Assembly: GCA_030682575.1 (NCBI GenBank)
Contig: JAUXNX010000023.1
Coordinates: 1 to 64,000, forward strand
From: Gammaproteobacteria bacterium
Lineage (GTDB): Bacteria > Pseudomonadota > Gammaproteobacteria > Pseudomonadales > Pseudohongiellaceae
Reading direction: 5' to 3'
DNA length: 64,000 nt
The translations under genes and the position numbers were made by a program. Below the pieces are notes generated by a model that saw only the letters and a list, made by a program, of their open reading frames with translations, had not been told where the DNA came from and ran no database searches. Positions 12,766 through 60,834 of this stretch are shown here, one piece after another (the first letter of the stretch is position 1; the number at the start of each line of letters is the position of its first letter).

Positions 12766-13413
12766 ATGGCAGCAGGTGTTTTCGGGGCAACAAGATTCAG
12801 TGGTGTAGTGCTTGCGTCAGCTTCGCCCCGGCGCAGAGAGTTGCTGGAGCAAATTGGCGTCCGTTACGAAATCGCCGAACACACCATTTCCGAAGTCGCC
12901 AATCCTGGCGAATCTCCCACGGCATTTGTCAGACGACTCGCACTTGAGAAGGCGCAGTCCGCCCAAGCCCTCCTTCCCGGACATCTCTGGCCCGTTCTCG
13001 GTGCCGACACCATCGTGGTGTATGACCAGCATATTCTTGGTAAACCAGTCGACAAAGCCGATGCTCTGCGGATGTGGGCGTTGTTGTCCGGGCGCGAACA
13101 TCACGTCTATTCAGCGGTGGCGCTGAGCCTGGGTCAAGAGAGCGCCGTGCTGATGTCGACCACACGTGTCAGATTTCGACAATTGACTGAACAGGAATGC
13201 GAGTCCTACTGGTCCAGTGGCGAACCCGCCGGCAAGGCTGGCGCCTACGCCATTCAAGGTCTGGGAGCTCTGTTCGTGGAGAAGCTCGTGGGTAGTTACA
13301 GTGGCGTGGTGGGTCTGCCCATTTTCGAAACCGCAGAGCTGTTGCAGCGCTTTGGTGTGGATACGGGTCTCGATATTCCGCCGGAACAGAGGATCATGCG
13401 TGAAACCCCATGA
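12766..13413 (+). CDS. maf: Maf-family nucleotide pyrophosphatase (YhdE-like)
   Basis: Maf proteins hydrolyse non-canonical or dTTP/UTP nucleotides to monophosphates. It has 215 residues with the N-terminal substrate loop [11 protein letters not shown] (about 22-32) and the conserved [16 protein letters not shown] segment, whose Asp serves as general base in the family. Context after mreBCD and before rng fits the dTTP/UTP-specific YhdE branch. An AGGGAG ribosome site precedes the ATG. The last four bases overlap rng. Confidence 0.9.
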
Positions 13414-14888
13414 GTGAAGAGATACTGATCAATGTGACGCCCATGGAGACCCGTGTGGCACTGATCGAGAATGGTCTGCTGCAGGAGATCTTCATCGAAA
13501 GGCCGCACAGCAAAGGGCACGTCGGCGATATCTATCTTGGCAAGGTGGTCAGGGTCATGCCCGGCATGGAGGCAGCCTTCATCGACATAGGCCTGGAACG
13601 TGCGGCTTTCATCCACAGCGCCGATATTGCCCCGGTTGGTCCCGATGGTTTCGAGATCAGGGAAGAGCCAGCACCGACGATCGAGAGCCTGGTACGCGAA
13701 GGACAGATGATCGTCGTGCAGGTGGCCAAGGACCCGATTGGCAGCAAGGGCGCCAGATTGACTACCCATCTGACGCTGCCGTCGCGCAATCTGGTTTATC
13801 TTCCTCGTAGTAAACATATTGGAATTTCTCAACGACTTGAGAACGAAGAAGAGCGGACGCGACTGTTGGCAATGATCGATGAGTGCATTCGTGAGGAAGA
13901 TATGGAGGGGCGCGGCGGTTTTATCATTCGCACGGCTGCGGAAGGTTGTGCAGCCGAGGAAATGATAGAGGATGTCCGTTTTCTGAAGAAGCTGTGGGTA
14001 GCAGTGGAACGACGCGTAGGCGAAAGTCGTGATGTGCATATACTCTATCGCGATGTGCCGCTCTACATGCGTGCGATGCGTGATCTGATCACGCCGCATA
14101 TCGAGAAAATACGGATCGACACGCAGAGTGCGTTCGATGAAATCTCACGCTTCATTCAGGATTTCATACCCGAGTGTCGAAATAATGTTGAACTCTATGC
14201 AGGAGAGAGACCGATCTTCGATCTCTACGGCATCGAAGAGGAAATCAACAAGGCACTTGGGCGTCAGGTCAAACTCAAATCTGGTGGCGACCTTATTATC
14301 GATCAGACTGAAGCCATGACCACCGTCGACGTGAACACGGGCGCATATCTCGGCAGCAAGAATCACGCAGAAACAATTCTCAAGACCAATCTCGAAGCAG
14401 CCACCGCAATCGCAAGGCAACTGCGCGTGCGCAATCTCGGTGGAATCATAATTCTGGATTTCATCGATATGCTCGACCCGGAGCACCAGCGCCAGGTGCT
14501 GCGTACTCTGAGCAAGGCGTTGGAAAAAGATCATGCTCGCACCACGATCACCGGCATGTCCGAACTGGGGTTGGTAGAGATGACGCGCAAGCGTACCCGC
14601 GAAAGCCTTGGTCAACTGCTTTGCAGCGAGTGTGTTGTATGCAAGGGGCGAGGGAGGCTGAAGACCGCAGAGACCATCTGCTACGAAATATTCCGTGAAA
14701 TCATGCGGGTTGCCCGTGTCTACGAGAATGACGTGATCCTGGTTATGGCATCGCAGCGAGTGGTTGACAGACTGCTCGATGAGGAGTCCAGCACCTTGGC
14801 CGACCTGGAAGAATTAATCGGCAAGACGGTCAGGTTTGAGGTGGAACCCATGTATACTCAAGAGCAGTTTGATGTCGTGCTGTTCTAG
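13410..14888 (+). CDS. rng: Ribonuclease G
   Basis: Endoribonuclease of the RNase E/G family, involved in 16S rRNA 5'-end maturation and mRNA decay. It has 492 residues, the length of RNase G and lacking the long RNase E scaffold tail. S1 RNA-binding domain about 36-125; catalytic magnesium aspartates D307 (VDVNTG) and D350 (LDFIDM); zinc-link cysteines C408 and C411 before KGRG. The ATG overlaps the maf stop by four bases. Confidence 0.94.
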
Positions 14889-14954
14889 TTCTTTCCAGTG
14901 CCTGGCCGATGTTGCTGTGGTCTCCGCAATCACGCCCGAGTCCTCTTGTCTCTG

Positions 14955-17900
14955 ATGACCATGATTAAAACGTTACTGAAAAAGCTAATCTCGTTGCTGC
15001 TGACAACCAGTCTGGTACTGTTGTTGGCGGTGGCTGTGTACGTGAGTCTCGGTCGTCAGCTCCTGCCGTATGTGGTCAACTACCGCGCCGATATCGAGGC
15101 GCAGCTATCCGCCAGCATCGGACAGTATGTGCAGGTGGGCAGCTTGCAGGGCGACTGGCGCCGCTTCAACCCAATCATATCGCTGCAGCAGGTGTTGATT
15201 TTTCCGGCAGGATCTGCTGAATCAGCACAGGTAATGCTGTTCGATAATCTCAGTCTGGAGCTGGACGTCTGGTCGAGCCTGCTGGCCCGGCGCTGGGTGC
15301 TCGCCAACATTGAGGTGATCGGTCCCGAATTCACACTTGCCGAACAGGAAGATGGTGGCTGGCAATTGCGCGGTTTCGAGACCGGCACTGAGGCTCCCAT
15401 GAATCCCGATCAGATCCTGGATCTGGCATCGCGGGTCAATAATCTGGTTCTCAGCAACATGAGCATGACGCTGCAGCGTCATGATGGTCGATCGACCCGA
15501 TTGGAGCGCGGTCGCTTGCGGTTGCAGAGTCGTGATCAGCAATACTATCTGCATCTGGACGCCTGGCAGACGGACGTCGTCGGGCCACTGAGTGTGGCTG
15601 CTGAACTGAGCGGTAGTTCGGCTGCCGAGATATCCGGTCTACTCTACCTGTTGCTGCCGGGTAATGATTACTCGGAACTGGTCGCTGGGCGTTATGCAGA
15701 AGCTCTGGACCTTGACGCTTTCGACGGCAGTGGTGAATTCTGGGTCGAGATTGATCAGGGGCAAGTGCAGGCCGTGCAGGGCAGCGCTGCCATCAACAGC
15801 GTGGCACTGGGTCTGGTCGAGAACGATGCCGTAGTCGCGCTCGACAACCTTGAAGCCCGCTTTTTTGCACGCAGAACCATTACAGGTTCAGGAAATGAGA
15901 GTGACAAGGCACCTTCCTGGGAAATCCTGTTGCAGGACCTGAGCTTTCAGTGGAATGACATGACTTGGCGTGAGAGTGACCTGTATGTGAACTATCAGGC
16001 ACAGCAAACGCTGCAACTGCGCGCTGACAGTTTCAATCTGGGAATCGCGACGGGAATATTAGCGAGCGTGGAAATACTCAATGCAGAGGGCAGTGCACAA
16101 CTTGCTGAACACAATCCGCGTGGCGAGATGCAGAATCTGGAAGTGTGGTTGTCACTGCAGGACCCAGGGGCAGTGGAGACACTGCATGATGAGAAAGAAA
16201 CATTCCGTCTCTCGGCCAATTTGAGTGATGTGGCTTTCAGTGCGCGTGGCGCTGCGCCCGCATTGTGGGGAGTTGATGGTTTTGCAGAGGTCTCTTTCGA
16301 TGCGACAGCGCAGACATTGACGGGCTCAGTAGAAGTGGATTCTTCACGGTTCATGATTCAGCTCCCGACATTGTTCAATGACGCCTGGGCCTATGATCAC
16401 GTCAATGGTCGTGTACGTTTTTCTCTAGATATCAGTCAGGGGCAGCATCTGCGCCTGGCCAGCAGTGTGATCGTTGCCGAGTCGGATGCTGTGAATGGTC
16501 GAGCGATGTTCTCTACCGAGTACAGAAGGACGACAGATGAAAATAGAACGTCGACGCTTGAACTGATGGTGGGTGCACTCACTGCTGATGTCAGCCAGAA
16601 GAGTCTCTATCTGCCAACTGCGCCCAGAGTCAGCGATAGTCTTCGCGGTGTAATGAATTGGGTGGACGGCGCCGTACTTGGTGGTCGAGCTGTAGAGAGC
16701 GGCGTCATCTTCCGCGGCTCGCTGCTCGCCGGTTCTGCGCCCGAGGACAAGACTCTGCAGATGTATTACAACGTTCAGGATGGCACATTGCGCTTTGATC
16801 CGCAGTGGCCGGTACTCGAGAATCTGCATGGCAATGTCATCATAAAGGATCGTGAGGTAGATATCCGTGTCGAGAGCGGACAGTCACTCGGGATGGAGTT
16901 TGATGCCACTAATGCAGCCATTCGCCCGAATCCCGGAGGTGGCAGTTGGCTCAGTGTTGCTGGTCGTGGCAATGGTGCAGCACAGCAGGGACTGCGGTAT
17001 CTGCAGGAGACACCTGTCACGCGTGGCTTTGGCGATTACATGGCGGACTGGGTAGCGCAAGGCAGCGTCAGTCTCAATCTGGATCTGAGCATCCCGCTGG
17101 GAATCCCCGACATACAACCGCGTGTTGATGTTGGTTTGGCTCTGCACGACAATTCACTGTCTATTCCCGAGTTCGAATTGCACTTCACCCAGCTGGGCGG
17201 GGATCTCAGCTACAGCACACAGAGCGGTTTGAGTGGGGAGCAGATGAGTGCCACTCTTTTCGACAAGCCGGTTGCGGTGAATATTCGCAGCGAGGTCGAC
17301 GCACAACGAACTACAAACACATTTGTCGAACTTGCGGGTAGTGCTGATACGCAGGCGTTGCGCGACTGGCCTCTGCAGAGTGCTTTTGTGCAGGGTTTGC
17401 TGCGTCGCGCAGAAGGAGAAATGAATTACCAGGCACGTCTTGATCTGGCGCAGCCATCTGCAGCGCAACAGGATGGCGTGGCAGCCCGCCGGAGCCTGAC
17501 TATTACATCCAGTTTGCAGGGTGTGGCGCTGGATTATCCAGCACCTCTACGCAAGGAGACCCATGAGGAGCTTGCGCTGGATCTCAGGATTGCATTCCTC
17601 GGCGATCAGCAGGATCTTCGTGTTGCGCTCGGAGATGTCGGCTCAGTCAATGTTCGTCTTGAACGTGGTGCCGTGCGCAATGGTCTGGTGTTTCTCGGCA
17701 GACGTGCTGAAGGTGTGACCGTGCGACGCTTGAATGCGAATGCCCCGGGGCTTGATGTGGTAGGCAGTCTGCCTTTCTTCAGTTACGACGATTGGATGAG
17801 TGCGTTGCGTTCTGATCCCGATGCTGTCGCACCTTCATCCGCAAGTGATACGAATTTCTCGCAGTTGCGTGAAGCCATCAATGCTGTCGATGTCACCATA

Positions 17901-19145
17901 GGAGAAGCGCATGTTTTCGGACAGACTTTCGATGATCTCAATGTGCAGATTGCCAGTGAGGACCGGGATTGGGTCTTGACGCTTGCGAGCGAAAAAGTTG
18001 GCGGGGTTGTCAGGGTGCCCTATGCTGCCGATGTGCCTCTCAATGTTCATTTGACGCATCTGCATTTTCCCGCTCCTCTTGAACCCGAAGTGGCAGAGGA
18101 TGATGTTTCTGTTGTGGAGGGGGCGGTTGCTCCAGATTCAGTCGCCGCTTCGCCATCGACACCTGATGATGTTGAGGAGGAGCGCATGGATCCGCTGCTG
18201 GATTTCGATCCTCGCAATCTGCCAAGCATGCGCTTTACTGCCGACCAGATTCTGCGCGGTGATGCGGACTACGGTCGCTGGCAATTCATGCTGGAGCCTA
18301 TAACTAATGGTGCACAGTTCACTGACTTGATTGTAGAGGCAAGAGGGCTTCGTGCGGGCAGGGAGGGAGAGGAGGCTCGCTTCGTCTGGAATTACGATGG
18401 GACGACCCACCACAGTTATCTGACTGCGGCACTGGAAGCGAACAACATTGCCACTGTGCTGAGTGGTTTTGGCTATGCCCCCAGCCTTGAGAGCACAACG
18501 GCGAAGTTCAATGCCACGCTCGATTGGCCGGGAAGCCCCGCCTTCTTTGCCAGTACCGGACTCAGCGGCGAGTTGGACATGAATATCATGGAAGGGCGCT
18601 TCCAGCAGGGGGCGACTGGTGCGGGCAGTGGTGCGCTGAAGCTTATCAGCATCATCAACTTTGATGCCCTGGTGCGGCGACTGCGCTTCAGCGATGACCT
18701 TGTGCGCAGTGGCTTGTCATTCGAGCAGATCACAGGAGCCATGACATTGCGCAACGGCATCGTCACCATTCGTGATCGTCTGCAGATCATTGGGCCGGCC
18801 AGTCTCTTTCAGGTTACCGGGCAGTTGGATTTGCCGCAGCAAACCATTGATGGAAACCTCTACATCACCTTGCCTATCAGTGACAATATTCCCTGGCTCA
18901 GTGGCATCGCTATTCTGAACAATCTGATCAATTGGCAACTGGCAGTTGGTGTGTTCCTGTTTGACCAGATATTTGGCGATCAGGTGGATAGCCTTACCAG
19001 CGCGCAGTACACGCTCCAGGGGCCATGGGAAGGACTGGAACCCAGATTGAGTCAGGTCTTTGGCAATCCATCGGCGCCTGCAACGACCACAACTGCGCCG
19101 ATTCCACCGACACCAATCCCACCCGCTAATCAAGCTAATCAATAA
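14955..19145 (+). CDS. yhdP: YhdP-type AsmA-like envelope protein
   Basis: Very large inner-membrane-anchored protein of the YhdP/TamB/AsmA group, implicated in E. coli in phospholipid traffic across the periplasm. It has 1396 residues from the ATG at 14955: one N-terminal membrane segment (about 8-32), then long beta-rich periplasmic sequence and the conserved C-terminal AsmA-like domain, followed by a Pro/Thr-rich tail. An upstream ATG at 14898 would add 19 residues before the signal anchor and is less likely; an ATG at 14961 is also possible. A Pro/Ser/Glu-rich low-complexity insert lies near residues 1043-1080. The position after rng is the classic one. Confidence 0.88.
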   Translation: MTMIKTLLKKLISLLLTTSLVLLLAVAVYVSLGRQLLPYVVNYRADIEAQLSASIGQYVQVGSLQGDWRRFNPIISLQQVLIFPAGSAESAQVMLFDNLSLELDVWSSLLARRWVLANIEVIGPEFTLAEQEDGGWQLRGFETGTEAPMNPDQILDLASRVNNLVLSNMSMTLQRHDGRSTRLERGRLRLQSRDQQYYLHLDAWQTDVVGPLSVAAELSGSSAAEISGLLYLLLPGNDYSELVAGRYAEALDLDAFDGSGEFWVEIDQGQVQAVQGSAAINSVALGLVENDAVVALDNLEARFFARRTITGSGNESDKAPSWEILLQDLSFQWNDMTWRESDLYVNYQAQQTLQLRADSFNLGIATGILASVEILNAEGSAQLAEHNPRGEMQNLEVWLSLQDPGAVETLHDEKETFRLSANLSDVAFSARGAAPALWGVDGFAEVSFDATAQTLTGSVEVDSSRFMIQLPTLFNDAWAYDHVNGRVRFSLDISQGQHLRLASSVIVAESDAVNGRAMFSTEYRRTTDENRTSTLELMVGALTADVSQKSLYLPTAPRVSDSLRGVMNWVDGAVLGGRAVESGVIFRGSLLAGSAPEDKTLQMYYNVQDGTLRFDPQWPVLENLHGNVIIKDREVDIRVESGQSLGMEFDATNAAIRPNPGGGSWLSVAGRGNGAAQQGLRYLQETPVTRGFGDYMADWVAQGSVSLNLDLSIPLGIPDIQPRVDVGLALHDNSLSIPEFELHFTQLGGDLSYSTQSGLSGEQMSATLFDKPVAVNIRSEVDAQRTTNTFVELAGSADTQALRDWPLQSAFVQGLLRRAEGEMNYQARLDLAQPSAAQQDGVAARRSLTITSSLQGVALDYPAPLRKETHEELALDLRIAFLGDQQDLRVALGDVGSVNVRLERGAVRNGLVFLGRRAEGVTVRRLNANAPGLDVVGSLPFFSYDDWMSALRSDPDAVAPSSASDTNFSQLREAINAVDVTIGEAHVFGQTFDDLNVQIASEDRDWVLTLASEKVGGVVRVPYAADVPLNVHLTHLHFPAPLEPEVAEDDVSVVEGAVAPDSVAASPSTPDDVEEERMDPLLDFDPRNLPSMRFTADQILRGDADYGRWQFMLEPITNGAQFTDLIVEARGLRAGREGEEARFVWNYDGTTHHSYLTAALEANNIATVLSGFGYAPSLESTTAKFNATLDWPGSPAFFASTGLSGELDMNIMEGRFQQGATGAGSGALKLISIINFDALVRRLRFSDDLVRSGLSFEQITGAMTLRNGIVTIRDRLQIIGPASLFQVTGQLDLPQQTIDGNLYITLPISDNIPWLSGIAILNNLINWQLAVGVFLFDQIFGDQVDSLTSAQYTLQGPWEGLEPRLSQVFGNPSAPATTTTAPIPPTPIPPANQANQ

Positions 19146-29735: not shown

Positions 29736-32021
29736 TCACTCTCGCAAGCCCACGGCAGCGGACTCGCCTCCCGTAGACAGTACCTCGCCAATACTGGCGG
29801 CGTTTCGATAACCTGCGGCATGAAGGTCGGCGAGACAGGCCGCAGCATTGCGGGCTGGTACAGAGGCCAGCAGTCCACCAGCAGTCTGCGGATCGAACAG
29901 CAGGTGGTAGAGCGGTTGTTTGTTCAATTGTTTTGGGTGGAACTGTTCTGCGTTGGTCAACAGAGCAGCATGTCTGGCGTTGTCTTCCTGAAGCGAGCTC
30001 AGATAACCGCCTGCGACGCACTCGAGCGCGCCATCGAGAATCGGCAGCGCATTCAAGCTCAGCACCACTCGCACGGCGTCAGGCGTGAGCATTTCACTCA
30101 AGTGACCCAACAGGCCGAAGCCAGTGATGTCGGTACAGGCATTGGCGCCATGTCGCACGAAACAATGAGACGCCATCTGATTGGAGTGCTGCATGTGGGT
30201 CAGGGCGTTCTCGATCCAGCGCTGCTTTGCCTGGTAGCGCATATCGGCGGCGAACAGTGTGCCGGTTCCCAGTGGTTTGCACAGGATCAGCACGTCGCCT
30301 GGCTGCATACCACGTTTGGTCAGTATCCTGTCTGGCTCGACGAAACCGTTGACGCTCAGACCGAAGCTCAGCTCTTGTGCCTCGCTCGAATGACCTCCAA
30401 TCAGGGCGGTGTTATGAGCGTTCAATACTTCAGTGCAGCCGCTCATGATCTCCAGCAACATGGATTGCATGATGCGTGGTGCGGCATGAGGCACACTGAC
30501 GATAGCCAGCGCCGAGTGTGCGGTGGCGCCCATGGCGTGAATGTCACTCAGGCAATGCACTGTCGCGATACGCGCAAAGAGATAGGGATCGTTGATGAAG
30601 GCGCGAAAGTGATCGACGGTTTGCAACAATGTGCGTCGCTCGTCAATGCGAATCATCGCCGCGTCTTCCGTGCTCATATGTGCGGACAGAATATCGGGGT
30701 GAGTGCAGGGATGCAGTTGTGCAAGCACGTCATGCAGCATGGTGCTGCCGACTTTCGCACCGCAGCCTGCACAGCGCAGACTGGAGGATCGTGATCCTGC
30801 AGAGAATGATCTTTCAACAGGCGCTGGTATGCGGCTGTATTTCTCTACAAAGCGCTGATCAATCCATTTCTTCCACACACCTGCCCAGCGGCCCTGCAAA
30901 GACCAGTTGCCCCGTGCGGCGATGGCAGTGCCATCGCCCAGATTGAGCAGCGCCAGCACGTGGGCCTGGGGATTGTAACTTTGCAGAGGAATTCCGGTGG
31001 CGAAGCGGCGCAGATTGCGCGCCAGGGGCATACCCTGCCGTACTGCATAGACCCCTGATCGCGGCCGTGGGCAATTTTCGATTGAAGCGATGTCGCCGGT
31101 GGCAAAGACGTTGGCATGGCTCACGCTCTGCAGATGATTGTTGACGAGAATGAAACCACCTGCATCCAGTGTCAGTCCGGTGTGTTGCAACCAGTCGGGA
31201 GCGCTGGCTCCTGTTGCCACCAGAATTCTGTCTGTCTGCAGACTCTCTACAGTAGAGGTGCCGGTTGTCTCCCAGAGCACGGCATTCTGCTCGACGCTCC
31301 TGACACTGTGCTGCAGTCGTACATCAATACCGCGTGATCGCAATGTGCACAGTGCGCGGGCCTGGGCTCCCGGATTCAGCGCGGACAGCAATACGCTACC
31401 GTTGGTCATGAGAACAATCCTGATGAAGGATTCCTGCCCCAGTCGATCAGGCAGTGGCAAACCGGCGTTTCGATACAAGCGCATCTGCATGGCGCAGGCC
31501 AGTTCGACACTTGCGGGACCACCACCGATTATCGTGATGGTATAGGGCCGCTGCTCGCTCACGGCAGAATCCACTTCCTGCTGGATACTCTCCCAGTGTT
31601 TCAGAAATTCAGGAATGGGCTTGACCGGAATTGCAAACTGTTCTGCGCCAGGAATCGCTGCAACGTCAGGCCAGGAGCCGATGTTTATCGAGAGAATATC
31701 GAATCCAATTGCGGGCCTGCCGGCACAGTGCAGCGTCCGGTTCTGCAGATCCATTTTCTCTACGGTGGCACGGATCAAACGTGCACCTGCCATCTGCGCG
31801 AGTGGGCGCAGGTCGATCAGCAGATCGTCCGTTGCACAGTCACCGTTGATCCACGCAGGTAATGCACCGGAGTAAGGGGTTTCCACGTCGCGGGTGACAA
31901 GCACAATATCCAGACCGGGAACCGGCTGCTTCGCCAGTTGCATGAGCACGGCAAGGTGGCTGTGACCGCCGCCGAGCAGAACGAGAGTCTGTGCGGCAAG
32001 TGTGGGGAAAGGATTCTTCAT
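29736..32021 (-). CDS. selD: Selenophosphate synthetase fused to NADH dehydrogenase-like domain
   Basis: SelD makes selenophosphate from selenide and ATP, the donor for selenocysteine, selenouridine and selenium cofactors. The protein has 761 residues. The N-terminal flavoprotein half (about 8-385) has FAD/NAD loops LGGGHSH (16-22) and IIGGGPAS (165-172); the C-terminal SelD half (about 412-761) has AGCGAK with C420 and K423 matching catalytic C17 and K20 of E. coli SelD. The ATG at 32021 begins the flavoprotein domain. The flavoprotein may deliver reduced selenium; that is inference. No selA, selB, selC or mnmH gene lies in the window. Confidence 0.9.
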   Translation of the reverse strand: MKNPFPTLAAQTLVLLGGGHSHLAVLMQLAKQPVPGLDIVLVTRDVETPYSGALPAWINGDCATDDLLIDLRPLAQMAGARLIRATVEKMDLQNRTLHCAGRPAIGFDILSINIGSWPDVAAIPGAEQFAIPVKPIPEFLKHWESIQQEVDSAVSEQRPYTITIIGGGPASVELACAMQMRLYRNAGLPLPDRLGQESFIRIVLMTNGSVLLSALNPGAQARALCTLRSRGIDVRLQHSVRSVEQNAVLWETTGTSTVESLQTDRILVATGASAPDWLQHTGLTLDAGGFILVNNHLQSVSHANVFATGDIASIENCPRPRSGVYAVRQGMPLARNLRRFATGIPLQSYNPQAHVLALLNLGDGTAIAARGNWSLQGRWAGVWKKWIDQRFVEKYSRIPAPVERSFSAGSRSSSLRCAGCGAKVGSTMLHDVLAQLHPCTHPDILSAHMSTEDAAMIRIDERRTLLQTVDHFRAFINDPYLFARIATVHCLSDIHAMGATAHSALAIVSVPHAAPRIMQSMLLEIMSGCTEVLNAHNTALIGGHSSEAQELSFGLSVNGFVEPDRILTKRGMQPGDVLILCKPLGTGTLFAADMRYQAKQRWIENALTHMQHSNQMASHCFVRHGANACTDITGFGLLGHLSEMLTPDAVRVVLSLNALPILDGALECVAGGYLSSLQEDNARHAALLTNAEQFHPKQLNKQPLYHLLFDPQTAGGLLASVPARNAAACLADLHAAGYRNAASIGEVLSTGGESAAVGLRE

Positions 32022-32095: not shown

Positions 32096-33532
32096 TTAGC
32101 GCGACGACTGAAATCCTGTGCGGGTCATCTCGCCCCAGCTCTTCTTCTTGCGCAGAAATTCCCACCAGCCCTGTACTCGCCAGATGTTGTTGATCTGTCT
32201 ATAGCCAAAGTTCTCTATCAATACACCCAAGATAAGACGCAGCAGATCCTTCGCGGTAGGGATGCGGTGCAACGAAATCTCCTCCAACACCAGTGATCCT
32301 GCACTGATGAAAACTCCGAACACGAACGTCAACGCCAGGAACGCAATGGCATAGTCGGGGTTGAGCATGCCGGAGAACCACAGGATCGGCACGAGCAGAT
32401 AACCCAGCACCTCCACGAGTGGGCCCAGCACGTCCACCAGCAGCGAGAAGGGCATGCCAACCAAGCCGATACGCCCATAACGGGGGTTTCCCAACATGCG
32501 GATATGACGAAAGAAAGTCTCCAAGGAGCCGCGTTGCCAGCGCTTGCGTTGCCGCGAGAGAGTCTTGAGATTATCCGGCGCCTCGGTCCAGCAAACTGGC
32601 TCAGCCACCGACACTACCTCATAGGGAATTTTCTTTTCCAGATGATAGCGATGCATGCGCATCACCAGTTCATAGTCCTCGCCCACGGTGTCTGTGTCAT
32701 AACCTCCAACCGCTATGGCGGCTGGTCGGCGGAAGATGCCGAAGGCACCAGAGATCAATGTGAGAATATTCAACTCGCTCATGGCGACGCGTGCGATCAG
32801 GAATGCCCGGGTGTACTCCACGGTTTGCAGCATTGGCAGCAAGTCCTTCGAGAGTGCCACGCTCATTACTTTGCCGCCACGTACCCGACAACCATTGGCG
32901 ACGCGTATGGTGCCACCTACTGCGATCACCTTGTCAGGTTTGCTGAGAAATGGTTGCACTGCGTGCAGCAGAGCATCAGCCTCCAGCATGGAGTCGGCGT
33001 CGATTGAACAGAACAGCGGCGAGCGTGAGATATTGATCCCTGCATTGAGCGCATCTGCCTTGCCTCCGTTTTCCTTGTCGATCACGATCAGGTTGGGATA
33101 TTTCTGAGACTGATAGATCTGCCGAATTGGTTTGTGAGGTGTGACGGATTCAAAATCTCTGGCGCTGGGGCGCAGTGCAAAATTCTTGATGAGCTTGTCG
33201 AGCGTGTCATCTTTCGATCCATCATTCACTACCAGCACTTCACAGTGAGGATAACGGATGCTGAGCATGGAGCGTGTGCTCTCCACGATGCTGGCTGATT
33301 CATTGTAGGCAGGTGCGATCAGGGAAATAGGGGGGGCACTTGGCGCTGTTTGATGCCATAGTGTTTCGCTATTCTCCGAGTCGTCGCGGCGGCGCAATGC
33401 TCTGGCGGCCACAACGAGTTGGAGCAGCGCAATCAGATTCTGAGTGAGCCCAACGACGATAACGAGGCCAACGATCCACTCGGCACTGGTGTTGATCCAA
33501 CTCACAATGCTGATGGATATCTGTTCAAACAT
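32096..33532 (-). CDS. Processive family 2 glycosyltransferase, membrane
   Basis: Inner-membrane GT2 enzyme of the cellulose synthase/PgaC type that polymerises and may extrude a polysaccharide. It has 478 residues with an N-terminal membrane span (about 16-45) and C-terminal spans (about 355-430). Catalytic motifs: VVNDGS (101-106), DAD (178-180), GED (284-286) and the processivity motif QRKRW (328-332). The ATG at 33532 overlaps the end of the HEAT gene by eight bases; a start 18 bases earlier is possible. Product sugar unknown. E. coli YaiP, neighbour of YaiO, is a comparable pair. Confidence 0.85.
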   Translation of the reverse strand: MFEQISISIVSWINTSAEWIVGLVIVVGLTQNLIALLQLVVAARALRRRDDSENSETLWHQTAPSAPPISLIAPAYNESASIVESTRSMLSIRYPHCEVLVVNDGSKDDTLDKLIKNFALRPSARDFESVTPHKPIRQIYQSQKYPNLIVIDKENGGKADALNAGINISRSPLFCSIDADSMLEADALLHAVQPFLSKPDKVIAVGGTIRVANGCRVRGGKVMSVALSKDLLPMLQTVEYTRAFLIARVAMSELNILTLISGAFGIFRRPAAIAVGGYDTDTVGEDYELVMRMHRYHLEKKIPYEVVSVAEPVCWTEAPDNLKTLSRQRKRWQRGSLETFFRHIRMLGNPRYGRIGLVGMPFSLLVDVLGPLVEVLGYLLVPILWFSGMLNPDYAIAFLALTFVFGVFISAGSLVLEEISLHRIPTAKDLLRLILGVLIENFGYRQINNIWRVQGWWEFLRKKKSWGEMTRTGFQSSR

Positions 33533-34643
33533 GAAGGGTATCCTTGTCATTGCCCATCACAGCTTGCAGTTCAAGCAGTCCGTGTTCATCAAGGAGCAGT
33601 GCAGCCATGCGTCCTCCGGCATTGTCATTGACATGGCTGACGACCGAAGCGCGTTCGCGTAGTGCCTGCAATCCTCGCGTACCGAGTTCGGTTAGCGCTT
33701 CTGCGCTGCGAAATCGCACCCACCAGTTGTCGTCGTCGATCAGTCTGGCAAGTTGTGGGGTCAGATTTTCGAGACCAATCTGGCCAGCAGCAGCTGCTGC
33801 AATAGCCCGAACCTGCCACTGCGCGTCTTCCAATGCATGCTCAACTACGCTCGCCGCACCTGGATGTTGCAACGTGCCGAGAGACTTCAGGGCAGTGGTG
33901 CGAAGATTGAGATTGGCGTCATTCGCAAAATGGTAGAGATATTCCAATACTCTGAAATCACTTGACTCGGACATCGCATCTGCGATGACAATTTTCAGCC
34001 TGAGGCTGCTGTCATTCGCTACGGCAAGCTGGTACAGCACCTGAGGAGTCCGGCGCGCCATATCGCGGAACAGGGTACGGGCATCGCGAGTGTGCAGCAT
34101 GTTCTTTTCTTCGAGCTTGCGAACCAACAGCTTCGCTTCGGGCATCGCATCGATTTCCTTCAACGAACTTGCTGCAGCGAGTCTTACGCGACCATCCTTG
34201 TCGTCCATGGCACGGAGAAGAGCCGCCTTTGTTTTCTCATCGGCGAACAACTGTAGTGCAGAAACAGCGGTGCGGCGACGTTCGTGATGGCTGCTGAGAA
34301 GATCGCGAAGACACTCATCGCGAAAGCCGGTGCGGTCGAGAAGACCTGTAAGCTGTTCGCGCTCCTGTCCCTGTATGAGGTGGCAAAGATCAGTAGCCAG
34401 CCGACGCAATACCTGATGGCCAGCTTTGTCCAGATTCATGAGGTTCTTCAGATCTTTCTGTCCACTTAACCAGTCGGCATTCATGTAGCTGAAGAGAATT
34501 TGCTGGATGATGTTGCGAAGATGTTGATCGCGTCTGATGGTGCGTTCGTCCATTAGACGTCGCAGCACGAGGATAAGCATGACCAGCAGCGACGCGAACG
34601 CCAATATCAGGCTGGTCCACCAGATCAGTTGCAGCTCGTTCAT
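33525..34643 (-). CDS. Membrane-anchored HEAT-repeat protein
   Basis: A 372-residue protein with one N-terminal membrane span (about 8-30), then HEAT/armadillo-type helical repeats over about 60-350, for example RVRLAAASSLKEI, LNLRTTALKSLGTL, QVRAIAAAAAGQI and WVRFRSAEALTELG. It is likely an inner-membrane scaffold whose soluble part faces the cytoplasm, judged by the basic RRLMDERTIRR after the span. It lies 40 bases after the TPR/barrel gene and overlaps the glycosyltransferase start, so it probably assembles with those proteins. Confidence 0.82.
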   Translation of the reverse strand: MNELQLIWWTSLILAFASLLVMLILVLRRLMDERTIRRDQHLRNIIQQILFSYMNADWLSGQKDLKNLMNLDKAGHQVLRRLATDLCHLIQGQEREQLTGLLDRTGFRDECLRDLLSSHHERRRTAVSALQLFADEKTKAALLRAMDDKDGRVRLAAASSLKEIDAMPEAKLLVRKLEEKNMLHTRDARTLFRDMARRTPQVLYQLAVANDSSLRLKIVIADAMSESSDFRVLEYLYHFANDANLNLRTTALKSLGTLQHPGAASVVEHALEDAQWQVRAIAAAAAGQIGLENLTPQLARLIDDDNWWVRFRSAEALTELGTRGLQALRERASVVSHVNDNAGGRMAALLLDEHGLLELQAVMGNDKDTLHV

Positions 34644-34683
34644 GCGCGGTGTTCCATGGGATCAACAGACATCAGATGACGCC

Positions 34684-36033
34684 CTAATAGCGATATTGCA
34701 GTGTGAGTGCGACGCTTTCGCGGGTATAGGAACGTTCGCGACGGCTCTCGCTCACGTTGAGTTGCACTTGCCAGCGCGTGTCGAAACTGTAGGCCATATA
34801 ACCGCTGACACTCTGGGTTCTGGTAGTAATGGAGTTCTCCGTTTCGCCACCTTCACTATAGGCGAAACCAACACGGGCATTCGCATTTGTCTGCCAGTGA
34901 GCACCCAATTGCCAGCCACCGATGTTGGAGTTGTTCTCATCACGCAGCAGTCCGATGCCAACGCTAAGCCATGCGTCAATATTGCGAAGATAGTGGTCGG
35001 CACTGATATTGCCTCGCAACGTATTGCCCGTGGAGTATCTGGCGCTTTGGATACTGGCATTCATGAACGTGCTGCCGAAGGTGTCGCTTCCTTCGCTTAG
35101 ACGAAATCCCGTGCTGGCCCGCAGGCTGTGTTCAGGCATGAAGTGGGCGTCCGCTGTATAACTGAGCCCGAATTCAACAGGCACGCTGCTTTGTTGTCTC
35201 AACAGCAAGGAGGTGTCGATCGATGTGTCATGCTCGCCGAAGCGGTGATTGTGACTGAGCCGGAGAGACTGTTCAGATGCGATGCTGTAACGGTGACGAT
35301 ACTCGACAAAGCGATCGTGCCAGTGCTGTCCTGCGGTGTCCGTACGGCTGCGTTCATAACCAGTGATCCATGCATGTTTCGTGGCACCCGGCATGGCTGC
35401 GGCGCCCTGGCGGTTCAAGACGTCGATGTGGCCGGGTGCGAGGTCTGCTGCCCGTGTCAGCACAGTACTTGCCCCATCACGATTGCCAAGCGCGAGTTCA
35501 GCATCGTAAAGGCCGATAAGTGCCTCCAGGTCGTCGGCATTACTTTGCAGCACCTGCCTGAAAAGTGTTCTCGCGTGGGCGGGCCTGCGTTGGTACAGCG
35601 CAATGCGCCCGCTGAGATTGCGCGCCTCCTGATTGTCAGGCTGATTGATGAGGACGCTCTGGGTCAGTTCTTCTGCTTCCTGCAACACTCCCTGGTACGA
35701 CCGCACGCGGGCCTTGGCCAGCAACAGATTGTTGTCCTGCGGATAATCGACAAGTGCTGCATCCAGAATGGCAATAGCCTCTGCGTAACGTTCCTGGAAA
35801 GCTACGACCAGTCCCAGCAGATAGAAGGCTTCACTTTTGTTGCTGGCGATCTCCGACGCCTGACGTAACGCAATCTCTGCCTCGAGCATGTTGCCTGCGT
35901 TGCGAAGATTCATTGCATCCTGCACCAGCGTCTCGTAGTCCAGTACCTGTTCTGCGGCCATGCTGCTGTTGCCGACGTGGAGTGTACTGAGCAGAAGTGC
36001 GATATGGAAAAGATGTTGAGCCGAATTCTTCAT
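34684..36033 (-). CDS. TPR plus YaiO-type outer-membrane beta-barrel protein
   Basis: A 449-residue protein: signal peptide (about 1-27), periplasmic TPR region (about 30-200), then a C-terminal half (about 215-449) of alternating beta-strand sequence ending in the aromatic LTLQYRY, as in outer-membrane barrels of the YaiO family. The architecture resembles PgaA, which combines TPRs with an export barrel. Together with the GT2 gene downstream it is a good candidate exopolysaccharide exporter. The ATG overlaps the response-regulator stop by four bases. Confidence 0.82.
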   Translation of the reverse strand: MKNSAQHLFHIALLLSTLHVGNSSMAAEQVLDYETLVQDAMNLRNAGNMLEAEIALRQASEIASNKSEAFYLLGLVVAFQERYAEAIAILDAALVDYPQDNNLLLAKARVRSYQGVLQEAEELTQSVLINQPDNQEARNLSGRIALYQRRPAHARTLFRQVLQSNADDLEALIGLYDAELALGNRDGASTVLTRAADLAPGHIDVLNRQGAAAMPGATKHAWITGYERSRTDTAGQHWHDRFVEYRHRYSIASEQSLRLSHNHRFGEHDTSIDTSLLLRQQSSVPVEFGLSYTADAHFMPEHSLRASTGFRLSEGSDTFGSTFMNASIQSARYSTGNTLRGNISADHYLRNIDAWLSVGIGLLRDENNSNIGGWQLGAHWQTNANARVGFAYSEGGETENSITTRTQSVSGYMAYSFDTRWQVQLNVSESRRERSYTRESVALTLQYRY

Positions 36034-36398
36034 GGAGTTTTCAACGCTCTTTCTACGCGAAAAGTGAGTTCGTCGGGCGAGAAGGGTTTTGTCATGTAGT
36101 CAGTCACGCCAAGATCCAGCGCCTCCATCACATCGCGTTCGCGCCACTGAGCGGCGAGTATGAGGATGGGAATGTGGGCTGTGGCTGGATCATTCTTGAG
36201 TGCAGCGATGATGTCTGGCCCGTTCATGATCGGCATGAGGTAGTCCAGAATCAGCAGGTCTGGGGGGCTGCGGAGGATTGCCTCCAGAGCGAGTTCGCCG
36301 TCGGTGGCACTGTCGATCTGGTGGCCACGACGCTGCAGACGAAAGCTGATCAGATCGATGACGAGTTGATCGTCGTCTGCTATGAAAATGGATGCCAT
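36030..36398 (-). CDS. Receiver-only response regulator
   Basis: A 122-residue single-domain CheY-like receiver with no output domain. Acidic pocket D8-D10, phospho-acceptor D52 (LILDYLMP) and K104 (MTKPF) are present. The switch position that is normally Thr or Ser is Ala (A82 in ILAAQ), which should alter phosphorylation-dependent signalling. First gene of a tightly overlapping set with the YaiO-type barrel, HEAT protein and glycosyltransferase. It probably controls their activity by protein contact, but no kinase is adjacent. Confidence 0.88.
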   Translation of the reverse strand: MASIFIADDDQLVIDLISFRLQRRGHQIDSATDGELALEAILRSPPDLLILDYLMPIMNGPDIIAALKNDPATAHIPILILAAQWRERDVMEALDLGVTDYMTKPFSPDELTFRVERALKTP

Positions 36399-36531: not shown

Positions 36532-37653
36532 TTACAACGAGCGGATAGGGGAGCCCACATACAGCGCGCTGGGGCGCATGATCTTGTTGTCTTCACGGGA
36601 CTCGAGGAAATGCGCGAGCCAGCCGACACTGCGCGCCATGGCAAAGCCTGCCGTGAAATAGGTGGCAGGGATGCCGATGGCCAGATTCACCGGGCCCTTG
36701 TAGAACTCCAGGTTGGCCCAGACTTCCTTGCCCTTCTTCTGCATTTCGGCGTTGAATTCTTTTTCAATCTCTTTGAGTGTGAGGAACACATTCTCGAAAT
36801 CGGTGCCCTTGCACAGTTTTTCCGCCATTGGTTTGAGGATGGCGGCGCGCGGGTCCAGCTTGGTGTACTCGCGATGACCCATGCCCATCAGGCGACCCTT
36901 GTTGGCGAGCAGATTCACGACATATTCCCGGGCCCCAGCGGGAGCGCCGACTTTGATCGCCTCGTTCAGTGCCGCTTCATCAGCACCACCATGCAGGGTG
37001 CCATACAGGGCACCTACCGCAGAAGACAGGGCTGACTCCACCGGTGCCAGCGTGCTTGCTGTCACGCGGCACGTGAACGTGCCCGCGTTGAAGCTGTGCT
37101 CGAGCTGCAGAATCTGCAGCATCCCCAGACAGCGGATGTGATCTGCGCTGGCGTCCCTGGCGTGGAACATCGAGAGGAAGTTGTCGAGGTAGGATTTGCT
37201 GGCGTTGAAGACAGGGACATTGTCATTCAACTGCAGACGGCGGAAGGTGGCAAGCAGGGTAGGAATCCTGGCAACTACAGCCAGTCCGCGATAACCATCC
37301 TTGTTGGTAAAGGGCAGGTCCTGCGCTCCCTTTGGGGTTGTGTCCAACACTGGAATCATCGATTGCAACATGCGCATGGTATGCAGAGTACGCGGCAGAC
37401 TGGACAGGGTATTGAGCTCGCTGTCGCTCAGTGCGCCATTCGCCTTGAAGAAATTCTCCAGCTTTTCTTCCTGCTCCGCTGTGGCAAGCTCTCCGAACAA
37501 TACGAGCCAGACCACGCGTGTAAAGCTGAGGGTGACGAGCTGTTCGATGGTGTAGCCACGGTAGCTCAAGCGGCCCAGATCGCCTTCCACATTGCTGATA
37601 CTGGTCTGATCTGCGATGACGTCTTCTAGGCCTTTGGAGAATTGCACTGACAT
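36532..37653 (-). CDS. Citrate synthase family protein (short form)
   Basis: Condenses acetyl-CoA or propionyl-CoA with oxaloacetate. It has 373 residues, the short type II-like form also used by 2-methylcitrate synthases. Active-site histidines are H186 (LEHSFNAGTF), H221 (LHGGADEA) and H260 (GMGHREYTKLDPR). The catalytic Asp of the NVDFY motif is Glu316 here (ANLEFYKG), which occurs in some lineages and may change activity. It diverges from a LysR gene with an operator-like palindrome between. Citrate versus methylcitrate use cannot be decided here; no prp gene is nearby. Confidence 0.85.
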   Translation of the reverse strand: MSVQFSKGLEDVIADQTSISNVEGDLGRLSYRGYTIEQLVTLSFTRVVWLVLFGELATAEQEEKLENFFKANGALSDSELNTLSSLPRTLHTMRMLQSMIPVLDTTPKGAQDLPFTNKDGYRGLAVVARIPTLLATFRRLQLNDNVPVFNASKSYLDNFLSMFHARDASADHIRCLGMLQILQLEHSFNAGTFTCRVTASTLAPVESALSSAVGALYGTLHGGADEAALNEAIKVGAPAGAREYVVNLLANKGRLMGMGHREYTKLDPRAAILKPMAEKLCKGTDFENVFLTLKEIEKEFNAEMQKKGKEVWANLEFYKGPVNLAIGIPATYFTAGFAMARSVGWLAHFLESREDNKIMRPSALYVGSPIRSL

Positions 37654-53513: not shown

Positions 53514-55697
53514 ATGACACGACTCATTGGATTTTCCACGCTGGCAACGGCCGCCCTGCTCATCGCAGCATGCGGGCCCACGCCTGAGCAAACCCCATCC
53601 GCAATACCTGTGACACCAATACCAACAGCTGTGAGCGCCACTACTCCCAGTTTCGGCGCCGCCGTCAACACCGAGCGCCTTGTCGCATTTGATAGCGAAC
53701 CAGGCAACTGGATGAGCGTAGGCCGCGACTACGGTGAACAGCGTTACAGTCCACTCGAACAGATCAATGTGAACAACGTCGGCCAGTTGAGTCTCACGTG
53801 GTACGCCGACATCGACACCAGTCGCGGTCAGGAAGCAACACCAGTCGTCGTTGACGGCGCGATGTATGTCAGCACTGCGTGGAGCCATGTGAAGGCCTAT
53901 GACGTGCGCGATGGCACCCTGCTGTGGGCCTTCGATCCGGGTGTTGATCCGGCAAAAGGCGTGGATGCGTGCTGCGATGTGGTCAATCGTGGTGTTGCGG
54001 TATGGGAAGGCATTGTCTTCGTCGGCACCATCGACGGTCGTCTGATTGCACTGGACTCGCAGACCGGTGAACAAGTGTGGAGTGTCGTCACTATCGATGA
54101 AACCAAGCCCTATACCATCACTGGCGCGCCACGCATCGTGAAAGGCAAGGTCATCATCGGCAATGCTGGTGCCGAATACGGCGTGCGGGGATATGTCACA
54201 GCCTATGACGCTGCGACCGGCGAACAAGCCTGGCGTTATTACACAGTTCCGGGGAACCCCGCCGATGGCTTCGAGCAACCCGAACTGGAAATGGCAGCAC
54301 AGACATGGAACGGCGAATGGTGGACGCTCGGTGGTGGAGGAACCGTCTGGGACGCGATGGCGTATGACGCGGATCTGAACCTGCTTTACATCGGTGTCGG
54401 CAACGGCTCGCCCTGGAACCAGAGTCTGCGCAGCCCCGGCGGCGGCGATAACCTCTTCCTGACCTCCATCATGGCGCTCAATCCCGACGACGGCACCTAT
54501 CGCTGGCACTATCAGACCACACCCGGCGAGACCTGGGACTACACTGCCACACAGCACATCATGGTTGCCGATCTGATGATCGACGGGCAGCAGCGCCGCG
54601 TGGTGATGCAGGCGCCGAAGAACGGTTTCTTCTACGTGCTGGATGCAGCAACAGGACAACTGATCTCCGCCGAGAAATTCGTGCCGGTGAACTGGGCCTC
54701 GCACATCGATCTGGAAACGGATCGACCTGTCGAGATTCCGGAGGCGCGCTATGACGAGACCGGCGTGCCGATGATCGTGTATCCGGGGCCGCAGGGTGGA
54801 CACAACTGGCATCCGATGTCGTTCAGCCAGCGCACCAATCTCGTCTATCTGCCTGCGCGTGAACAACACAGAGGTTATGTGGCCGATCCGGTGCTCATCA
54901 CCACGGATCGCGGCTGGAATATCGGACTCGATTCTTCGGCTGGAGCGGCGCTGGTAGAAGCTGCAGGCGACAATGCCCCGCAGACCCAGGCCTACCTGCT
55001 GGCTTGGGACCCGGTGAATCAGCGCGAAGTCTGGCGTTCACCCCGATTGGTACCCAACGAGGCGGCTGGAGTGCTCAGCACAGCAGGGGGGTTGGTATTC
55101 CAGGGCAATGCGTCGGGTGAATTCAATGCCTACAAGGATGACAATGGCGAGTTGCTGTGGTCCGCGATGACGCAGGCGATGATAGTCGCCGCGCCGATCA
55201 CATTTACTGTCGATGGCGTACAGCACGTTGCGGTGCTCGCAGGCGGACGTTCACTGCCCACCACCGGTGCAGGAGCGATTGGTTCTACCACGCGTGCTTC
55301 CACGAACAACTCCCGCATGCTGGTGTTCAAGATAGGCGGAAATGCACAACTGCCTGATGAGTTGCCGCAGGAAGTCTCGGCGGCGGGCGAACTGAATCCA
55401 CCGCCGATGATTGGCGACAGCGAAACCATTGCGCATGGCGAACAGGTCTATGGCCGTCTGTGCAGTGTGTGTCATGGCGCCTCCGGTATCAGCGACAGCG
55501 TAGGTACGTTCCCGGATCTGCGCTACAGCGCGCGACTTGCGAGTGCGGAGGCGTGGCACTCTGTAGTGATCGGCGGAGAGCTGGTGGCGGGCGGCATGGT
55601 GTCTTTCGCGGGTGCGCTGGAGACAGCCGACCCGGAGGCGATTCGCGCGTACATCATCGCCAGGGCCACTGCAGACCGTGAGGCAATGACAAGGTAA
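53514..55697 (+). CDS. PQQ-dependent alcohol dehydrogenase with cytochrome c domain, lipoprotein
   Basis: Quinohemoprotein alcohol dehydrogenase that oxidises alcohols or aldehydes in the periplasm and passes electrons to cytochrome c or quinone. It has 727 residues. Lipobox LIAAC (Cys20) makes it a lipoprotein, probably on the outer membrane or the periplasmic face of the inner membrane. The vicinal disulphide is in VDACCDVV; the PQQ propeller segment GNGSPWN...GGGDN is typical. A C-terminal cytochrome c domain has heme motif CSVCH (650-654) and candidate axial Met about 695. Calcium versus lanthanide use cannot be judged here. No pqq genes are in the window. Confidence 0.88.
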   Translation: MTRLIGFSTLATAALLIAACGPTPEQTPSAIPVTPIPTAVSATTPSFGAAVNTERLVAFDSEPGNWMSVGRDYGEQRYSPLEQINVNNVGQLSLTWYADIDTSRGQEATPVVVDGAMYVSTAWSHVKAYDVRDGTLLWAFDPGVDPAKGVDACCDVVNRGVAVWEGIVFVGTIDGRLIALDSQTGEQVWSVVTIDETKPYTITGAPRIVKGKVIIGNAGAEYGVRGYVTAYDAATGEQAWRYYTVPGNPADGFEQPELEMAAQTWNGEWWTLGGGGTVWDAMAYDADLNLLYIGVGNGSPWNQSLRSPGGGDNLFLTSIMALNPDDGTYRWHYQTTPGETWDYTATQHIMVADLMIDGQQRRVVMQAPKNGFFYVLDAATGQLISAEKFVPVNWASHIDLETDRPVEIPEARYDETGVPMIVYPGPQGGHNWHPMSFSQRTNLVYLPAREQHRGYVADPVLITTDRGWNIGLDSSAGAALVEAAGDNAPQTQAYLLAWDPVNQREVWRSPRLVPNEAAGVLSTAGGLVFQGNASGEFNAYKDDNGELLWSAMTQAMIVAAPITFTVDGVQHVAVLAGGRSLPTTGAGAIGSTTRASTNNSRMLVFKIGGNAQLPDELPQEVSAAGELNPPPMIGDSETIAHGEQVYGRLCSVCHGASGISDSVGTFPDLRYSARLASAEAWHSVVIGGELVAGGMVSFAGALETADPEAIRAYIIARATADREAMTR

Positions 55698-56793: not shown

Positions 56794-58827
<2,034 letters not shown>

Positions 58828-59415: not shown

Positions 59416-60834
59416 CTAAAGATACGGAGAGAAAAGCCAGGCAATGGAATCGCGAATGCGCTCCGGCAGAGAGCGGCTTTCGATTTCCGTCTTGGTTACT
59501 CGCCTGGATATCCCGCGCTTGGCGAGCACATACTGACTCAGTTGCTGGTTGACGTCGGGACTGAACAGCTCTACCCCCAGCTCGTAGTTCAGGCGCAGGC
59601 TGCGTGGATCGAGATTGGCTGAGCCAATCAGCGAGTACTGACCGTCGATCAGCAGCAGTTTGGAGTGAATGAACGGAGGAGGCTGGTAGTACACCGCAAT
59701 GTCGTGTTCCAGAATTGTGCGCAGGACGTTGCGCGCGGCCCAGTGTGCGGGTTTGATGTTGTTCTCGCCTGGCAACAGTATCTGCACATCCACCCCGCGC
59801 AGATGTGCTGCAATCAGCGCGCCGATCAGGTCCTGCGATGGCAGGAAGTAGGGAGTCATGATCCATACGCGGCTGCTGGCGGCGCTGATCACGCCAAGAA
59901 TCAGGTCATTGAGCCGATCAAGTTCTTTGTTTGGACCATCCAGTACCAAGCGACTCCATACAGGTGCTTCGCTGCGATTTGGATTGCTGTGACGGAAGGG
60001 GCCGAGCTTGCGGGTGCCAATGGAGTAGTGCCAGTCGCGTCGAAATGCCCACTCCAGCTCGTCGACGATGCGACCCTTGAGCCGGAAATGAATATCCTGC
60101 ACCGGGTGACGGTTACCTTCCAGGGCACACAAGTGTCTGCTGCCGATATTGGCGCCACCGGTAAAGGCGTAGAGACTGTCGATGATGAGCATCTTGCGGT
60201 GACTGCGCATGTTGATGTTCAACGATGGGGGAATCAGCGTGACAGGATTGAAGCGCGTGAATTCAATTCCGGCCCGCTGCAGCGCCTTGCCAATGCGCGG
60301 AAAACTCATCAGTTCGCCCATGCCGTCGAGGACCACTTTCACCTCTGCGCCACGCTTGCGGGCCGCGCTCAATGCTTCGACGAACTGCAGCCCCGTGCTG
60401 TCGCTGTCGAAGATGTAACTGCACAGCAACACGCGTGTTGCTGCGGCATTGATAGCTTCAAGCATTGCTGGATAGAGCCCCTCACCATTCTCCAGAATCG
60501 TCACTTCGTCGCAGGAACTCAGTCCCTTGCCTACCACACGCTCGCCAACGGTGGAGACTGGTCGAAAATTGGTTCCGACCGGGTCAGAGATCGTGTCAGT
60601 GTAGTCCTTCAACAACTTTGTGATGTATCCCTTGCGGGCTCGGTTGTTGACACGGTTGACGCCAAAGATCAGGTAGATGACAGGGCCAGCGAGGGGCAGA
60701 ATAATGCACAGAGCTATCCACCCGAAGGCGGCTCGTGAGTCCCGCTTGTTGAGCAGGGCATGGCCAGCTGCGAGAATCGCCATGAGCAGCAGCAGGGGGG
60801 GAAGAATCCATAGCAGAGCGGACGATGGCGTCAC
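59416..60834 (-). CDS. cls: Cardiolipin synthase
   Basis: Phospholipase D-family cardiolipin synthase condensing two phosphatidylglycerol molecules (or PG and PE) in the inner membrane. It has 472 residues: two N-terminal membrane spans (about 8-60), then two HKD catalytic motifs, HRKMLIID and, near the C-terminus, HSKLLLID, each followed by GGANIG or GSANLD. Full length for the Cls family. It is the last gene on the minus strand here and diverges from the histidine kinase. The UspA gene lies 150 bases downstream. Confidence 0.92.
   Translation of the reverse strand: MTPSSALLWILPPLLLLMAILAAGHALLNKRDSRAAFGWIALCIILPLAGPVIYLIFGVNRVNNRARKGYITKLLKDYTDTISDPVGTNFRPVSTVGERVVGKGLSSCDEVTILENGEGLYPAMLEAINAAATRVLLCSYIFDSDSTGLQFVEALSAARKRGAEVKVVLDGMGELMSFPRIGKALQRAGIEFTRFNPVTLIPPSLNINMRSHRKMLIIDSLYAFTGGANIGSRHLCALEGNRHPVQDIHFRLKGRIVDELEWAFRRDWHYSIGTRKLGPFRHSNPNRSEAPVWSRLVLDGPNKELDRLNDLILGVISAASSRVWIMTPYFLPSQDLIGALIAAHLRGVDVQILLPGENNIKPAHWAARNVLRTILEHDIAVYYQPPPFIHSKLLLIDGQYSLIGSANLDPRSLRLNYELGVELFSPDVNQQLSQYVLAKRGISRRVTKTEIESRSLPERIRDSIAWLFSPYL

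Follow-up and report, generated by a model that had tools for sequence, protein, structure and literature searches.

A recurrent cassette of a receiver, a TPR-YaiO barrel, a HEAT-repeat protein and a family-2 glycosyltransferase points to a synthase-dependent polysaccharide system, possibly gated by phosphorelay

We analyzed a 64,000-nucleotide stretch of DNA from a gammaproteobacterium of the Pseudohongiellaceae (GCA_030682575.1, contig JAUXNX010000023.1, positions 1 to 64,000; hereafter the window), which carries an operon of four genes for a stand-alone receiver (REC), a TPR protein with a YaiO-type barrel, a HEAT-repeat protein and a family-2 glycosyltransferase (GT2) (Table 1). The open reading frames bear out the coordinates and the tight spacing given in an earlier, sequence-only reading of this DNA: the REC and barrel genes share 4 bases, a gap of 40 bases separates the barrel and HEAT genes, and the HEAT and GT2 genes overlap by 8 bases, or by 26 if the GT2 starts at a further in-frame ATG upstream, at 33550. 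The same reading had seen in these parts a regulated polysaccharide system, an idea that holds up in the family matches, the gene linkage and the match of the barrel fold to BcsC. The parts, their motifs, their conserved linkage and the grouping of the GT2s can be read directly from the sequences. We suggest that the cassette makes up a polysaccharide system of the synthase-dependent kind: the receiver, once phosphorylated, would gate the GT2 through the HEAT protein as an adaptor, and the barrel would export the product. The synthase and export machinery is well supported; for the proposal as a whole, gating included, we consider the chances evenly balanced.

Table 1. The four genes of the cassette in the window.
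Feature	Coordinates	Strand	Remarks
Stand-alone receiver (REC)	36030..36398	(-)	122 aa, Response_reg, without output domain
TPR and YaiO-type protein, predicted outer-membrane beta-barrel (putative export)	34684..36033	(-)	449 aa
Membrane-anchored HEAT-repeat protein (candidate adaptor; HEAT domain predicted cytoplasmic)	33525..34643	(-)	372 aa
Inner-membrane GT2 (family-2 glycosyltransferase, processive-synthase motifs)	32096..33532	(-)	478 aa

The GT2 matched Glycos_transf_2 in Pfam (1.8e-19) and has three hydrophobic stretches. Its motifs D104, D178xD180, E285D286 and Q328xxR331W332 are conserved, each position being kept in at least 48 of 52 aligned rows. The set of D, DxD, ED and QxxRW is the signature of processive GT2s. 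Judged by these features, the protein appears to be the membrane-bound processive enzyme expected of a synthase-dependent polysaccharide system, and a polymer-forming activity is predicted. Searches of the PDB with the cassette proteins gave mainly generic GT2 and TPR matches, besides those to HEAT proteins.

The barrel protein matched TPR families together with two YaiO models, PF19413 (27.4 bits, above the cut-off of 23.9) and the barrel model TIGR04390 (39.7 bits, above the cut-off of 32). Its AlphaFold2 model (pLDDT, the predicted local distance difference test, 84.9; alignment of five sequences) shows helical repeats followed by 14 strands. Compared with solved structures by Foldseek, the model found Escherichia coli BcsC in first and second place (best E 6e-11), OmpG-type porins in fourth and sixth, and PelBC in fifth, with TM-scores by query length that are low throughout these top six (0.29-0.40). 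As modelled, the protein would join a TPR-bearing periplasmic part to a barrel predicted to lie in the outer membrane, as exporters of synthase-dependent systems do. It could be argued instead that the GT2 is not a polymerase and makes a short oligosaccharide, a glycolipid or a protein glycan, the barrel serving to anchor or to sense. Plain porins do make up much of the Foldseek list, barrels without a matched TPR occur in two homologous loci (L037 and L041), and catalytic residues are altered in the GT2s of L047, L048 and L049 (at E285 and R331) and of L075 (at several positions), enzymes that are possibly decaying or changed in function. This explanation is unlikely in our view: the catalytic motifs are kept in nearly all rows, the best named GT2 models are polymer synthases, and a YaiO-type barrel lies near the GT2 in 40 of the 48 loci surveyed below.

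Alternatively, the cassette could have diverged from a system that already has a name (PGA/PNAG, cellulose, Nfr or Yai): among named models the GT2 matches PgaC_IcaA (TIGR03937) best, and the barrel has a YaiO domain. Like PgaABCD of E. coli (L051), it combines an inner-membrane GT2 bearing the common motifs with an exporter made of TPRs and an outer-membrane barrel. The resemblance to PgaA/PgaC drawn in the sequence-only reading stands for this layout but not for the synthase as a PgaC: the GT2 reaches 139.1 bits against the PgaC cut-off of 422.3, is 31% identical to E. coli PgaC over 298 residues and stands apart from it in the tree. Moreover, the operon has HEAT and receiver genes instead of a pgaB or pgaD gene, and its barrel belongs to the YaiO domain family, with a match to PgaA at the TPR level only (23.9 bits against a cut-off of 366.65). 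The yaiO-yaiP-yaiS locus of E. coli (L050) likewise brings together a YaiO-domain barrel and a GT2. However, YaiP has 26% identity to the GT2 over 224 residues, the E. coli locus also encodes an acyltransferase and a putative deacetylase, the region gave no HEAT or receiver match, and yaiO, with 257 codons, would from its length be expected to lack TPRs. In the available part of one report, NfrA/NfrB (L052) is likewise a synthase with an outer-membrane partner making a surface glycan, and NfrB depends on cyclic di-GMP (c-di-GMP), unlike the control proposed here for the cassette (PMC8669472). NfrB showed no significant match to the cassette GT2, and the E. coli nfr region has no HEAT match and only one receiver match, to the neighboring cusR. 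With the cellulose system the likeness lies in BcsC, which heads the fold matches of the TPR-barrel protein, and in the GT2 motif set that BcsA and the cassette GT2 have in common; the differences are the absence of a PilZ match and a score of 45.2 bits with the UDP-forming cellulose synthase model (TIGR03030, CelA) against a cut-off of 699.1. As a small control, the pga, yai and nfr regions of E. coli and five PgaC loci (with about 1.5 kb of flank) were searched for HEAT, and none gave a match. When 61 GT2s were placed in one tree, PgaC, YaiP, NfrB and a second GT2 of L038 split from the rest on a branch with support 98/79, the second figure being slightly below the starred level; the branches of NfrB, YaiP, L076 and L075 are very long, so their placement is unsure. 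On the curated cut-offs and the low similarity, we rejected assignment to the PGA, cellulose, Nfr or Yai systems, and a divergent copy of any of them seems very improbable.

The HEAT protein matched HEAT_2 (1.9e-23), and its AlphaFold2 model is helical throughout (pLDDT 85.8). By sequence, its PDB matches were chiefly generic HEAT or artificial alphaRep proteins, and by structure the model found generic repeats. Of 22 rows, that of L010 began inside the gene; in each of the other 21, a single N-terminal hydrophobic helix is followed by more K/R than precede it. By the positive-inside rule, the HEAT domain most likely lies in the cytoplasm behind one N-terminal anchor, and therefore on the same side as the receiver and the catalytic domain of the GT2. 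The membrane anchor proposed in the sequence-only reading is retained, and its envelope scaffold, for which the side of the membrane had been left open, gives way to an adaptor between receiver and synthase, which fits a cytoplasmic domain better. Helices 276-289 and 307-319 are the most conserved and make a candidate surface for contact with the GT2 or the receiver.

The receiver matched Response_reg over residues 4-115 (2.3e-24), with no second domain above any Pfam cut-off. Acidic residues 8-10, the phospho-acceptor D52 and K104 are all present, and across the receiver family the phospho-acceptor Asp is kept in 35 of 37 rows and the Lys in 34. By its fold, acidic pocket, Asp and Lys, the window protein qualifies as a CheY-like phospho-receiver.

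To what extent the cassette hangs together was surveyed with a GT2 profile built from 11 GT2s, all of them HEAT-linked; genome counts include the genome used as the center of each sample. The profile matched 14 of 274 genomes in the class sample (E 1e-70) and 15 of 398 in the sample of the phylum Pseudomonadota (E 1e-60). The latter include the window's own genome, and HEAT is encoded nearby in 12 of the 14 others. PgaC, for comparison, was found in 5 of 120 genomes of a smaller sample. Matches were also found in 40 of 148 genomes from the phylum of the Ignavibacteria genome G711, presumably the Bacteroidota of GTDB (its locus L017 carries the label Ignavibacteriota in the GT2 tree output), and in 2 of 151 from the phylum of an Armatimonadetes genome, in which receiver, HEAT and GT2 occur together. 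Of 48 loci, 45 have HEAT near the GT2 (44 of them upstream on its strand), and 34 have a receiver upstream on that strand. The 28 Pseudomonadota loci have HEAT in 26, the receiver in 17 and the barrel in 25, and the 20 loci of the G711 phylum in 19, 17 and 15, respectively. A receiver was counted if it scored above 55 bits and lay no more than 4.6 kb upstream on the GT2 strand; for a barrel the limits were 30 bits and 6.5 kb, with both strands allowed. Barrel counts are lowered by contigs that end close to the cassette, L017 among them. HEAT was missed in L076, where the GT2 match is weak (212 bits), in L100, where the contig ends after about 0.8 kb, and in L074, considered below. In L040 it adjoins the GT2 on the opposite strand, and in L047 a match split into two pieces was counted.

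The Pseudomonadota loci comprise 13 from the class sample, 12 more from the phylum sample, L016, L020 and L021. The last two entered through a HEAT search, so their HEAT linkage is not independent; without them HEAT is found in 43 of 46 loci. Those of the G711 phylum are L017 and the 19 next best matches, that is, the best 20 of 44; some of the remaining 24 have open frames longer than 1,100 aa, which suggest fusions. Outside the 48 stand the window, its near relatives L009-L015, L018 and L019 (both with receiver and HEAT), and L088, a contig of 3,007 bases with no HEAT match. All four genes occur in the same order in the near relatives L009 (where unknown bases interrupt the barrel gene), L010, L012/L013 (two contigs of one assembly with identical matches) and L014. 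The cassette is nonetheless patchy even within the genus, since only 7 of 57 close relatives, the window's own genome included, have HEAT matches: three strong ones beside a GT2, two weak ones beside a GT2 (L006, L008), and one weak match in L007, where no such GT2 was found. As for the barrels, ten from the G711 phylum scored at least 103 bits on re-testing against the TIGR04390 cut-off of 32. Eight from Pseudomonadota exceeded the PF19413 cut-off (L020, L021, L037, L041, L044, L045, L048, L049) and that of L016 fell slightly below it (23.5 vs. 23.9); the other barrels were called by a profile made for this analysis. Since the arrangement recurs in other phyla, it is more than chance. Scattering of the homologues, which would have spoken against the sequence-only reading, was not observed; they stand together, usually in the same order, in both Pseudomonadota and the G711 phylum.

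Within each phylum, distance matrices computed for the individual parts agree, with r of 0.85 and 0.87 for GT2-HEAT and 0.72 and 0.60 for REC-barrel, the weakest pair; 0 of 500 shuffles were as high in any of 12 tests, from which L047, L075, L076 and L088 were left out. In the GT2 tree, members from Pseudomonadota and from the G711 phylum are partly interleaved, with 5 label changes each, as would fit some transfer between phyla.

Our proposed mechanism is as follows. The inner-membrane GT2 would polymerize a nucleotide sugar and thread the chain through its own membrane helices, and the periplasmic TPRs and the YaiO-type barrel would move it across the outer membrane. A kinase encoded elsewhere would phosphorylate the stand-alone receiver in the cytoplasm, the phosphorylated receiver would dock on the membrane-anchored HEAT adaptor, and the adaptor would gate the GT2, filling the place of PgaD or of a PilZ domain in c-di-GMP-controlled synthases. 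We infer the polymer activity, the export, the contacts of REC with HEAT and of HEAT with the GT2, and the gating that would run through them. No PilZ (E up to 1) or GGDEF match was found by Pfam in the four proteins, so that a c-di-GMP-binding control part of the PilZ kind is absent from them; such a part is not universal among synthase-dependent polysaccharide systems. By Pfam, in a search that covered chosen loci, histidine kinases adjoin the cassette in eight (L044, L065, L066, L067, L068, L069, L073, L093). Inspection by eye added a histidine kinase beside the cassette in L021, whose receiver gene holds two receivers.

Several observations weigh against this gating, and most of them fit another account, in which the machinery is the same but c-di-GMP or gene expression controls its output, HEAT does no more than help assemble or stabilize the GT2, and the receiver has a different partner. 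By the criteria used, 14 of the 48 loci lack a receiver, compared with the 45 that have HEAT nearby, and L074 has receiver and barrel with no HEAT match. The switch position of the receiver, Thr or Ser in 34 of 37 rows, is Ala82 in the window, which could weaken the phosphorylation signal. This Ala is shared with the near relatives L009, L010, L012 and L014, possibly as a clade-specific change in phospho-signaling; in receivers generally, the switch residue is not always Thr or Ser, and Ala is no bar to membership. In the window's genome there are 31 matches to GGDEF and 25 to HisKA; none of the latter adjoins the operon, the closest lying about 27 kb away. In L092 (3981-5951) and L094 (4404-6029), the gene that precedes HEAT encodes a GGDEF protein with the receiver as its C-terminal part, and in L090 (2168-5536) a GGDEF-EAL protein is encoded upstream of the cassette. 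In this branch, c-di-GMP may act on the cassette, and the branch is a possible meeting point of phosphorelay and c-di-GMP. Finally, the agreement of the distance matrices shows shared history, not contact. On the other side, none of the 31 GGDEF matches is on the window's contig, the four proteins lack PilZ and GGDEF matches, the receiver of the window stands alone, lacking any part for DNA binding or c-di-GMP synthesis, and the neighboring kinases of the eight loci favor a phosphorelay. We regard control by c-di-GMP or expression, with the receiver acting elsewhere, as a possible account that falls clearly short of an even chance. As an observation apart, a HisKA match lies at 62964-63155 (+), in a 1050-aa open frame near the window's right end.

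If the phosphorylated receiver does gate the GT2, two-component signals could influence the making of a surface polymer with no need for transcription or c-di-GMP, and YaiO-domain barrels, for which a literature search showed no function, would be given a concrete job. Most of the familiar processive synthases in Gram-negative bacteria are under c-di-GMP control; the cassette pairs a synthase of processive type with a receiver and a HEAT adaptor. It is conceivable, and only a little less than an even prospect to us, that this is a widespread class of synthase opened directly by phosphorelay through receiver and HEAT adaptor, in parallel to c-di-GMP and PilZ, and about as common as PgaC in the Pseudomonadota samples. 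No publication describing this four-gene arrangement was found in a search that most subscription journals lay outside, and a description elsewhere is possible; the cassette is apparently an undescribed, widespread variant of synthase-dependent polysaccharide systems. In the parts available, the EmbRS paper deals with a LuxR-type regulator and other polysaccharide clusters (PMC3684757), and the lipocone paper names HEAT repeats only for beta-catenin (PMC12419801).

Accessory genes vary among the loci. In L019, a protein encoded between HEAT and GT2 weakly matches a polysaccharide deacetylase (21.1 bits, cut-off 23.1); sulfatase-type proteins are encoded after the GT2 in L018 and upstream from the HEAT gene in L046, and L048 and L049 have NAD-dependent epimerases. 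This variation suggests that the polymers differ among lineages. The absence of a deacetylase and of any c-di-GMP protein, remarked in the sequence-only reading along with that of PilZ, accordingly holds for the operon and not for the whole family, as L019 and the GGDEF proteins of L092 and L094 illustrate. In L046, a 478-aa protein with no Pfam match above cut-off is encoded at 2869-4305 (-), between the sulfatase-type gene and HEAT-GT2, and open reading frames resembling relatives of it occur at L045, L105 and L106.

On one side of the operon lies a citrate synthase gene (36532-37653), on the other a SelD-type fusion gene (29736-32021). These genes do not seem to be part of the cassette, because L012 and L014 keep the four genes with no homologue of either within 13.4 kb around. 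Scans for promoters and terminators were at chance, with 4 promoter-like sites against 3.1 expected and 3 terminator-like sites against 5.1. The fusion gene, on the minus strand, matched a pyridine-nucleotide oxidoreductase (TIGR03169, 382 bits) and a SelD-type domain (TIGR00476, 293 bits) above their cut-offs and the model 'fusion_not_SelD' (TIGR04369) at 513 bits, below its cut-off of 700; the nearest relatives L009, L010, L011 and L015 likewise carry it downstream of the cassette. Other genes of the window are ordinary by Pfam (13410-14888, 14898-19145, 53514-55697, 56794-58827 and 59416-60834), their types being RNase E/G, YhdP, a PQQ-type beta-propeller, an FMN oxidoreductase and a phospholipase-D-type protein.

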